Shown in pieces: positions 1 to 4,810 of a stretch of 40,088 nt of DNA. Origin of the DNA: Pseudomonadota bacterium (GTDB lineage: Bacteria > Pseudomonadota > Gammaproteobacteria > Acidiferrobacterales > Acidiferrobacteraceae); the NCBI GenBank assembly GCA_021784845.1, contig JAJYHH010000114.1:1-40088 (forward strand). Direction: 5' to 3'. Position 1 is the stretch's first letter, and each line of letters begins with the position of its first letter. The notes under the pieces were generated by a model, which worked only from the letters and a program-made list of their open reading frames with translations, did not search any database and was not told the DNA's origin. A program made the translations under genes and the position numbers.

Positions 1-594
1 ACCGGCAAATGATCGCCATGCAGAGACTGATGCAGGTTTCGTTTGGCGCGTTTGCGGGGATCCCCGCGATGCCTTATCTGAGCGTGGCCGGGCCCGCGGT
101 GACCGGATCTCTGCCGCAGCCGCGCCCTGCAGCGGCCAGTCCGGCGCCTGTGGCGGGTGCGGCCTCGCCGCGCTACCGGGTGATCCGGTGGACGCAGCCG
201 GCACACCCGCCCGCGAAGCGGGCTGCCTGAAGGGCGGTTTGCGGCCATTATTCCCAGCCGGCGGGGTGTGCCTCGGCTGGGGTCAGAGCGGTGTGGCGGT
301 CTTTGGAAGGTAACCGCTCCCGGGCATTGCACGGCGCGCGCACGGCATTCGCCGCCCGCCTGCTGACGCGTTTTTTTCGTATCCTCAATCAGGCGCCGTT
401 GCCGCCCGTGACCGGTCGCATCGTCGGCGCGTGCCAACGCGCGTGACGGCCGGTCCTGTGTGTCTGCGGCAATCACCCTGCAACCGCCCTTTTGCCAGGG
501 GCCCTAGGGCACAATGTATGGCATGCTCGGGTTTCTGGTCGGCGCCAAGGATGGCGCCCGTCTGCCGAGATTTGCTCCCAAGTGGGGGGTGACT

Positions 595-718
595 ATGCCG
601 CAAGTCCACGGCACGCCGCTTGTCGAAGCCATGCTTTCTCGCCTGAAAGTCACATCCGCCGGTCTTAGTCAGACGGAAGCCGATGAGCGTCTGCGGCGGT
701 ATGGCGCCAATGCCCTTC
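595..718 (+). pseudogene. 5' fragment of a P-type cation-transporting ATPase (N-terminal cation-ATPase domain only)
   Basis: Translation MPQVHGTPLVEAMLSRLKVTSAGLSQTEADERLRRYGANAL matches the start of P-type ATPases (GL(S/T)..EA..RL.RYG.NAL). Similarity stops at about 715 and the frame ends at 747 with no further ATPase domains. Confidence 0.7.
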
Positions 719-1615
719 GTCAAGTACGGCGGCTTGCGCTTTCTTGACGCCGCGCACGTCAAAGACGTGCTCGCAGTGCTGCGCTGGGCGGAAAACCCCC
801 GTGATCGCGTGGCGGGTCTGCGTGTCCTGAAGCTGCTGCCAGGCGTCGGCCACCAGACCGCGGTTCGCCCGCTCGACTGTGTCGTCGCCCGGGCTGACGT
901 GGCAGGCGGCTTGCAGGATCAGCCCCCACCGAGCCGCGGGCAGGCCGCCTGGGGGCGGTTTCTGGCCTTGATGACGGCCCTGCGATGCGCTACGGCGATC
1001 TGGCCCCGGGACATCAGTCTCGTGGTGGCATGGTATGCCGTCCATCTCGGCCGGCTTTATGACGATGCGCCCGCCCGGCAGGCCGATCTCGACCAGTTAA
1101 CGCAGATTGCGGCCGTACATCCCTCGCGCCGCCAGTTCCTCACGGAACTGACCCTCGATCCACCCGCTGCGATCAGCGGTGAATCCGGCGCGCCCGCGCG
1201 GGATGAGGACTACCTGACCCTGTCCACCATTCATTCGGCGAAAGGGCAGGAATGGCGGGCGGTTTATCTCCTGAATGCCGTCGATGGCTGCCTGCCCTCG
1301 GATATGGCGACCGGGCGGCAGGATGAGATTGAGGAGGAACGCCGCCTTTTGTATGTCGCCATGACCCGTGCCCGCGATCACCTGCAGATCGTCGTGCCGC
1401 AGCGTTTCTTCGTCACGCACCAGGCCGCGCGCGGTGATCGCCATGTCTATGCAGGCAGAACACGCTTCATTCCCGAGAGTCTGCTTGGGCTCTTCGATGT
1501 CGTCGCGTGGCCGCCGGCCCCTGTGGCCGATGCACCGCCGGATCCGGGAACGGGCGCCGTGGTGGCGGGCATGCGCGCGCGCATCCGGTCTCTGCTGGAG
1601 CGTGGCGGCGCCTGA
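710..1615 (+). pseudogene. 3' fragment of a UvrD/Rep superfamily 1 DNA helicase
   Basis: PFVKYGGLRFLDAAHVKDVLAVLRWAENPRD, LTLSTIHSAKGQEW (motif V) and EEERRLLYVAMTRARDHL (motif VI) are typical of the C-terminal half. No Walker A or N-terminal helicase motifs occur upstream. Confidence 0.8.
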
Positions 1616-2354
1616 GTTTTCTCTTGGGGGCGAGCAGTTCGATCAGAATCGAATGAAATCCGGTCACTGTGCGCCAATAAGGGGAGATTGGCAGGCATGG
1701 GTGAATCCGTCCCGCCGCAAATCGCCTGCATCCGCGTCTTAAGCCGCGGCCAGCCGCGAGCCCCTTCGGAAAGCATGATCGGGAACGGCAAAAGCGAGCC
1801 TCCGAACTTTCCGGCCGCATAGTCTGGCGATCGTGATCACGGGCGCCAGGATGGGCGCAAGAAGCCTCCCTGCCGGCGGCAAGGGCCCGGCGACGGCCGC
1901 CAAGACCTGGGCGAAGCGGGCAAGATTTTCTGGCGCCTAACCAATAAAGAGCCTGGCGATGCCTTGTGCAGACTCGTCTGCGCCATTGCCAGAGGGCGCC
2001 ATGCCATCGCAGCGGGAAGGCGTGACGGGGACGGGCATCCGGACGCTCCATTGGGGACGTCCGCTTTGACGGGGTCCGTCGGCAACGGGGAATACAGGGC
2101 GCAAACAGCGCAATCGCTGACAGTGGCGGTGACCGGCCCCTGCGCGGCAAAGCGTGCGCGGTCTGCGGTACGGTACAAAAAAGTGATGGCGGTATCGGTG
2201 CGGCAAGGGATTGACCCGCAGTGCAGGCGCCTGTCGCGGCCGGGATAATGCGGCCAGGAATCTCGCTGCATTCGCGGCGAGTTGGGCCGTGTCAGCCGGT
2301 CTTTACGGGGGGCTCTGGGCGAGAGGAAGGCGTGGGCAGGTCCGAGAGCGCCGT

Positions 2355-3299
2355 TCACAACTGTGTCGCGGCATCGGGGATCGGCTGAAGGCACGACACC
2401 AGATGGTCGCGTATGGCCGTGCGCAATGCCGCGATCGCCTGCGGGCGCGGAAAGTGTTCGCGCCAGGCAAGAACGATGCGTCGCGTGGGGGCCGGGGGCG
2501 CAAAAGGGCGCAGGGCCACCAGGGCGGAACCAACGTGGTCACGGGCACTGGCAGAGCAGGGCAAAACCGTGATGCCGACGCCGCTTGCCACCATGTAGCG
2601 GATGGTCTCGAGCGAGCCGCCCTCGAGCGTTTTTTGCCATTCCCCGGGCTTTGTGCGCGCAAGCCCGCCGCAGACCTTCAACACTTGATCGCGGAAGCAG
2701 TTGCCGGTTCCGAGCACGAGGGTCGTTTCTTCCGCGAGCCGCTCGGGCTCGATCTGTGTCCATGCGGTCCATGGGTGATCCGGCGGCAGGGCGACGACGA
2801 AGGGTTCATCGTAGAGCGGCGCGGTGGACAGGCCGCTTTCGGCGAACGGTTCGGAGACGATGATGGCGTCGAGTTCGCCTTGCCGCAGGCGCTCGGCCAG
2901 AACGCGCGTGAAATGTTCCTCGATGATGAGCGGCATCTTCGGTAACTGCGCCCGCAGGGTGGTGATCAGGCGCGGAAACAGGTACGGACCGACTGTGTAG
3001 AGGGCGCCGATCCGCAACGGTGCCGCATAGGGATCGGCGCCCGCCTCGGCCATCGCCTTCAGGGCGCGTGTCTCATCGAGGATGCGCGTGGCCTGGGCGA
3101 CGACCTGCGCGCCAACGGGTGTCAGCGCGATCTCGCCTGCGCGCCGCTCAACGAGGACGACGCCGAGCTCGTCTTCGAACTTCTTGATGGCGACGCTCAG
3201 GGTGGGCTGGCTGACGAAACAGGCCGCTGCCGCCCGCCCAAAATGCCGTTCGCGGGCCAGAGCCACAAGGTATCGCAATTCCGTCAGGGTCATAGCCAA
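2355..3299 (-). CDS. oxyR: LysR-family hydrogen peroxide-sensing regulator OxyR
   Basis: N-terminal LysR HTH (LTELRYLVALARERHFGRAAAACFVSQPTLSVAIKKFEDELG). GNCFRDQVLKVC has the redox cysteine pair at OxyR spacing (C-x8-C). Divergent from a peroxiredoxin gene. Confidence 0.9.
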   Translation of the reverse strand: MAMTLTELRYLVALARERHFGRAAAACFVSQPTLSVAIKKFEDELGVVLVERRAGEIALTPVGAQVVAQATRILDETRALKAMAEAGADPYAAPLRIGALYTVGPYLFPRLITTLRAQLPKMPLIIEEHFTRVLAERLRQGELDAIIVSEPFAESGLSTAPLYDEPFVVALPPDHPWTAWTQIEPERLAEETTLVLGTGNCFRDQVLKVCGGLARTKPGEWQKTLEGGSLETIRYMVASGVGITVLPCSASARDHVGSALVALRPFAPPAPTRRIVLAWREHFPRPQAIAALRTAIRDHLVSCLQPIPDAATQL

Positions 3300-3328
3300 A
3301 TACTATAGCACAGGTAGTCACAATTCAT
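3292..3328. promoter_or_regulatory. Putative OxyR operator (ATAG-N7-CTAT-N7-GTAG-N7-TCAT)
   Basis: Exact 7-nt spacing of four tetranucleotides; 13/16 match to ATAG-N7-CTAT-N7-ATAG-N7-CTAT. Lies at the oxyR start and just upstream of a possible -35 (TTGTAC 3328-3333) and -10 (TATTGT 3352-3357) for the divergent gene. Confidence 0.65.
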
Positions 3329-3412
3329 TGTACCAATGACTTCAGGGTGCGTATTGTGGACCAGACCAGCGGGGAGAGACCCGACTCAGATGACAAAAAA
3401 AGGAGAACACTC

Positions 3413-4150
3413 ATGCAGAACAATCGCGAAGGACAGAAGGTACCGAATGTGGTGTTTCGGACGCGGGTTGACAACGCCTGGGTCGATCGGAGCTGCGTCG
3501 ACATTTTCACCGGTCGCACCGTAGTCGTGTTCGGCCTGCCGGGGGCATACACGCCAACCTGTTCGACAAGCCATGTGCCGCGTTTCCATGAACTGGCGCC
3601 GGTCTTCCGGGCCAACGGAGTCGACGAGATCGTCTGTGTGTCGGTCAACGACGCCTTCGTCATGAACGCCTGGCAGAAGGATCAGGGCGCCTCGCGTATC
3701 ACGTTTCTCCCCGACGGCAACGGCGAGTTCACGGCGGCCATGGGCATGCTCGTCGACAAGTCAGACCTCGGTTTCGGCAAGCGTTCATGGCGTTATGCCA
3801 TGCTCGTGCGCGACGGCGTGATCGAGAAGATGTTCATCGAACCCGAAGTCGAAGGGGACCCCTTCGAGGTTTCGGATGCCGATACGATGCTCCGCTATCT
3901 CAATCCGCAGGCGCGCGAACCGGAATTCGCCTTTCTCTTTACCAAGGCGGGCTGCCCTCACTGCGCGCGCGCCAAGGCGTTGCTGGAGCGCCACGGTCTG
4001 CCGTATGAAGAGGCGGTGGTCGATGGCAGCATTTCGAGCCGTGCCTTGCGGGCTGTCACCAACCGCGCCTCCCTTCCCCAGATCTTCATCCAGGGGCAGC
4101 ACGTGGGCGGCGCAGACGATCTCGACCGCTATCTCAGGGGCCGGCCGTAA
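3413..4150 (+). CDS. Hybrid peroxiredoxin (Prx5-type)-glutaredoxin
   Basis: Prx domain with PGAYTPTCSTSHVPRF, then a Grx domain TKAGCPHCARAKALLERHGLPYEE...SLPQIFIQGQHVGGADDLDRYL. AGGAG ribosome-binding site before the ATG at 3413. Confidence 0.9.
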   Translation: MQNNREGQKVPNVVFRTRVDNAWVDRSCVDIFTGRTVVVFGLPGAYTPTCSTSHVPRFHELAPVFRANGVDEIVCVSVNDAFVMNAWQKDQGASRITFLPDGNGEFTAAMGMLVDKSDLGFGKRSWRYAMLVRDGVIEKMFIEPEVEGDPFEVSDADTMLRYLNPQAREPEFAFLFTKAGCPHCARAKALLERHGLPYEEAVVDGSISSRALRAVTNRASLPQIFIQGQHVGGADDLDRYLRGRP

Positions 4151-4180
4151 GTTCCCTGGCCGCAGGTTCCGGGGCTCCCC

Positions 4181-4810
4181 TCAATGGGGTGCGTGGCGGC
4201 CGGGAGGTGTGACGATCAGACGGCCATACATGTGAAAGGCCCTGGCATGGTCTGCGACCGGGCAGACGTAGTAGTACGTCCCGGGCCGTGTGATACGGAA
4301 TTTCGCACGGCCCACCGCATAACGGGCCTGTTGCTCGTGTGGCGAGGTGCGCGGCGCGAGGATGAGGGTCTGCGCGATGTCGGTCTCACGCGTATCGGGG
4401 ATCACCACGGGGTAGGGCGGCGGCATGGTCGTGACCAGGAAACCGTGCGACATGCCGGGGCCCTTATCCATGTTCAGCAGCGTCACGGTCACTTGCGCGC
4501 CGGCCGTGACGACGAGCTCTGGATTGGTCAGTCCACCCGCTTCAAAGGTCATGTCCGGATGGCGGGGCGCATTGGCGACCAGGATGATGTGGACGCGGCG
4601 CCCGCGAAAGCCTATCTGCGCGCCTGATCTGTGCCCTTCGCGCATCGATTGCTGCCACAGCGAGCGGGCCTCCCGCCAGGGGCGTGTGGCGGCGCGGACC
4701 GGTTGTTGCCCGGACATAAGCATGCCGGACATGGGCATGTGCATGGCGGCGAGCGCGCCCGGACCGGCGAGAAAGCTTGTGGCAACAAACAGGGCGCGAA
4801 CGATACGCAT
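4181..4810 (-). CDS. Exported rusticyanin/sulfocyanin-like cupredoxin
   Basis: Signal peptide (MRIVRALFVATSFLAGPGALA), Met/His-rich mature N-terminus, GMSHGFLV and GTYYYVCPVADHARAFHMYGRLIV copper-site motifs. Confidence 0.75.
   Translation of the reverse strand: MRIVRALFVATSFLAGPGALAAMHMPMSGMLMSGQQPVRAATRPWREARSLWQQSMREGHRSGAQIGFRGRRVHIILVANAPRHPDMTFEAGGLTNPELVVTAGAQVTVTLLNMDKGPGMSHGFLVTTMPPPYPVVIPDTRETDIAQTLILAPRTSPHEQQARYAVGRAKFRITRPGTYYYVCPVADHARAFHMYGRLIVTPPGRHAPH

Follow-up and report, generated by a model that had tools for sequence, protein, structure and literature searches.

The window, meaning the whole stretch of 40,088 nucleotides that was analysed, forms the start of contig C10 of a draft genome made up of 117 contigs and 80% complete. 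Close to its left end, between a small gene designated gene X and a gene for a LysR-family regulator, lie the beginning of a P-type cation ATPase gene, the end of a UvrD-like helicase gene that follows it directly on the same strand, and a decayed piece of tnpB (Table 1).

Table 1. Features near the left end of the window, with the evidence for each
Feature	Position	Strand	Basis
Gene X, 3' end; small exported-looking protein, continues from contig C51	3..230	+	exact 127-bp overlap with C51
P-type cation ATPase, 5' fragment, ~42 codons	595..720	+	Pfam PF00690; open frame to stop 745-747
Junction zone ATGCCCTTCGT	710..720	+	helicase homology from 710, ATPase-like residues to ~720; possible microhomology
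UvrD/PcrA-like accessory helicase, 3' fragment, 301 codons + stop	710..1615	+	UvrD_C, alignment
Decayed tnpB 3' remnant, IS605/IS607-type	2156..2300	+	72% DNA identity with indels
LysR-family regulator, start of the conserved right flank	2355..3299	-	Pfam HTH_1 and LysR_substrate

Two gene fragments in different frames

The frame of ATG 595, which lies inside an ORF spanning 514-747 (frame 1), reads as the N-terminus of a P-type cation ATPase. A Pfam search with this ORF returned Cation_ATPase_N with an E-value of 1.5e-6 and 28.2 bits against a cut-off of 20.4, in a partial alignment that covers profile positions 6-43 of 69, and the N-termini of the ATPases of relatives, whose open frames comprise 833-1298 aa, are 42-53% identical to the fragment. 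The E1-E2 ATPase core and the phosphorylation domain are absent from it, since the frame ends at the TGA at 745-747 and leaves a product of 50 aa counted from ATG 595. When positions 1-4300 of the window were searched, no part of the ATPase was found beyond the N-terminal match, and none downstream of the helicase; nor was a close intact parent of the ATPase found. The region upstream of the ATPase start was also considered for an RNA element or riboswitch, and no credible Rfam match was obtained.

The helicase is read from the ORF at 683-1615 (frame 2), offset by one base from the frame of the ATPase. This ORF matches UvrD_C (E=5.3e-26) and UvrD_C_2 (E=1.3e-12) in Pfam; the C-terminal helicase domain is present, with motifs V and VI aligned with those of relatives, and over the last ~270-300 codons the fragment is 45-66% identical to full-length relatives of ~700 aa. 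The helicase terminates at its natural stop, at 1615. In the relatives, ~403-494 open codons precede the point equivalent to the start of the fragment and mostly about 290-300 follow it, so that about 400-450 N-terminal codons, including the ATP-binding part with the Walker A region, are missing from the window copy; before base 710 the ATPase coding sequence stands in place of the helicase N-terminal domain.

The transition between the two homologies is abrupt. A DNA match to another genome (G021), obtained with positions 1-4300 as query, begins at base 710 on the helicase side, and the plasmid matches listed for a query starting at 710 extend to its first base. In helicase relatives this point is preceded by a 'LEIELTRRN'-like stretch, to which the window codons before 710, being those of the ATPase, show no match. 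ATPase-like residues extend to ~717-720, so that ATPase-like and helicase-like sequence overlap by ~10 bases. The initial annotation had described an out-of-frame chimera of an ATPase 5' end and a helicase 3' end, and this description is borne out by the Pfam domains on both sides and the one-base difference in frame, neither the domain matches nor the frame switch being at chance level. It had placed the switch at about 710-720; the position is near, and at the DNA level the switch falls at 710, slightly to the left of that range. A microhomology at the junction (approximately ATGCCCTTCG, also given as CCCTTCGT) is plausible; the helicase side of the break point resembles AT(C/T)CC(C/G)TTCGT in relatives, the ATPase side having no close parent to compare. 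Repeats flanking the junction were sought as well, and only short pairs of low identity were seen.

Both remnants are probably pseudogenes, judging from the early stop of the product of ATG 595 and from the lack of a start region and of the N-terminal part in the helicase. The helicase fragment does retain an open frame of 301 codons with the motifs HSAKGQEW and YVAMTRA and a coding-like codon-position composition, as would be expected if the C-terminal fragment, or a frameshifted fusion, were expressed and functional, but a recent deletion would also be expected to leave the frame open. The N-terminal ATP-binding part is gone, no ribosome-binding site is evident at 683 or 710 on reading the sequence, the frames differ across the junction, and no relative with an equally truncated helicase was found; a functional product is thus extremely improbable. 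The same very low probability is given to a reading in which the helicase remnant is translated from an internal start and, driven by the ATPase promoter, is kept as a free-standing protein consisting of the C-terminal helicase domain. The earlier judgement that a functional fusion is unlikely is upheld by the change of frame and by the 50-aa product.

A variable locus between conserved flanks

Gene X is completed by contigs C51 and C10 together: the first 127 bases of C10 are exactly the last 127 of C51, with no longer overlap, and the gene X homologue of a sister species (G001) aligns to C51 over residues 9-189 and then to C10 over residues 158-234. The LysR gene is 84% and 78% identical to its same-genus homologues. 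A single contig of the sister species carries both gene X and the LysR gene, arranged and oriented as in the window and separated by 8.8 kb versus 2.15 kb here, and the interval (L061:6516-14777, on G001:C66) holds other genes, namely LysR, DoxX and a pair of proteins bearing ATP-synthase alpha/beta domains (ATP-synt_ab). On the upstream side of gene X the sister-species contig does not resemble C51, so that the synteny of the left flank rests on one gene; gene X is absent from the second same-genus genome (G002). The contents of this locus, from gene X to the LysR gene, seem to be swapped between species.

On the far side of the LysR gene, a peroxiredoxin-glutaredoxin fusion at 3413-4147 of the window adjoins it, in an order kept in both same-genus genomes. 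Just upstream of gene X (L063, G000:C51:8000-25038), there appear to be, from the translations, the end of a carboxysome-type cluster, a CbbQ-like ATPase and a DabA/DabB-like inorganic-carbon pair; these predicted carboxysome-type and inorganic-carbon genes suggest an autotroph. A tRNA-associated island was considered and set aside, there being no tRNA in the window.

The tnpB remnant sits between the helicase remnant and the LysR gene, away from the junction. It matches the 3' part of a tnpB gene on a Geoalkalibacter plasmid (L178), in which TnpB Pfam domains were confirmed, and a tnpB-like stretch in a further genome (L177, from G007). Such a remnant represents further decay, as expected of a degrading locus. 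It would also suit an insertion, in which illegitimate recombination placed foreign DNA with the helicase 3' end, and perhaps tnpB, inside the ATPase gene, whose remaining part disappeared simultaneously or afterwards. The helicase is indeed a patchy accessory gene, with strong homologues in 8 other genomes among the 369 of the class and further ones in many Rhizobiales, Thiobacillus and others (top identity 66%), and in other groups it is carried on plasmids; moreover, the two same-genus genomes yielded neither the ATPase nor the helicase gene. Against such an insertion stand the failure to find the ATPase remainder downstream of the helicase and the continuation of the helicase to its natural stop, and loss of the ATPase body would still be required, which adds steps; we regard it as quite improbable.

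Deletion or misassembly

The two gene fragments were probably joined out of frame by illegitimate recombination, through a genuine deletion in the chromosome or through decay in several steps. The parent state would have been a P-type cation ATPase gene with a UvrD-like accessory helicase gene downstream on the same strand; illegitimate recombination would have removed everything between about codon 42 of the ATPase and about codon 400-450 of the helicase, and the ends would have joined out of frame, possibly through a microhomology of ~7-11 bases around ATGCCCTTCGT. This agrees with the initial annotation, which had proposed that a deletion or rearrangement joined two genes, and it is the best-supported reading in view of the domain matches on both sides, the 127-bp contig-end overlaps, the conserved order of the flanks, the failure to find the missing gene parts in the genome, the patchy distribution of the helicase and the tnpB remnant. 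It is weakened by the search for a relative with an intact ATPase gene followed by a same-strand helicase gene, in which none was found. In G021 (L064:2993-8267) an 852 aa P-type ATPase and a UvrD-like helicase are adjacent but divergent, and the N-terminus of that ATPase is different; among 80 other helicase loci an ATPase match within the flank occurs only in one (L127). A conserved ATPase-helicase pair was accordingly rejected as the ancestral state.

An assembly misjoin had been named as the main alternative. The join could stem from a chimeric read or molecule, or two contig tips could have been linked in gap closing by way of the ~10 overlapping bases at ATGCCCTTCGT. The gap closers of some assemblers can connect tips via short overlaps. 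In its favour, the short overlap of both homologies falls exactly at the switch, the draft is fragmented and incomplete, and the junction lies less than 1 kb from the contig end, at a fork of the assembly graph. Exact 127-bp shared contig ends, however, are what a de Bruijn assembly at k=127 leaves behind, and the other end of C10 shows the same pattern, its last 127 bases being identical to the first 127 of contig C91. In such an assembly an internal join via a 10-base repeat is unexpected, ordinary misjoins needing far longer repeats, but gap closing or a chimeric molecule could still produce one; a short repeat alone should therefore not have joined two loci, and the reads should carry the junction. 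Furthermore, the flanks form one locus in the sister species with order and orientation kept, which a random misjoin would not reproduce; since this locus varies and contains both sides of the junction, deletion in place fits better. The decayed tnpB remnant nearby likewise argues against a simple misjoin, being what a degrading locus would be expected to hold.

The genome itself was also searched for the counterparts that a misjoin would have separated. No second Cation_ATPase_N domain was found in the rest of it, its three other E1-E2 ATPases being separate frames of 706-812 aa on other contigs, and matches to the helicase N-terminal part occur only in separate frames of 663-1249 aa. Neither the body of the ATPase nor the N-terminal half of the helicase was thus found as an orphan, and nothing was seen that points to a misjoin, with the caveat that at 80% completeness the missing parts could be unbinned. 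A misjoin is thus weakened by the 127-bp end overlaps and the conserved flank order, and is considered unlikely.

Relation to known gene families and deletion junctions

The N-terminal ~40 residues of the ATPase match the P-type cation ATPases with a Cation_ATPase_N domain, from which the window gene differs in that its remainder is missing. The helicase shares its level of identity and its C-terminal motifs with UvrD/PcrA-like accessory helicases of Thiobacillus, Rhizobiales and others (e.g. L087-L089 and L064), and differs from them in its truncated N-terminus. For annotation purposes both ORFs should be labelled pseudogene fragments, with no fusion gene called; beyond this, the junction has little importance, and it serves as a minor illustration of an accessory locus that changes quickly and has turned over from one sister species to the other. 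Illegitimate, microhomology-associated deletion yields junctions of gene remnants in bacterial chromosomes. No evident difference separates the present case from such junctions, the microhomology here being a candidate one. As in those junctions, two truncated same-strand genes abut with a few bases possibly common to both, no repeat or IS end is seen at the junction in the window, and both halves are apparently non-functional; the junction is very probably the commonplace scar of a deletion, in a part of the chromosome that is decaying.
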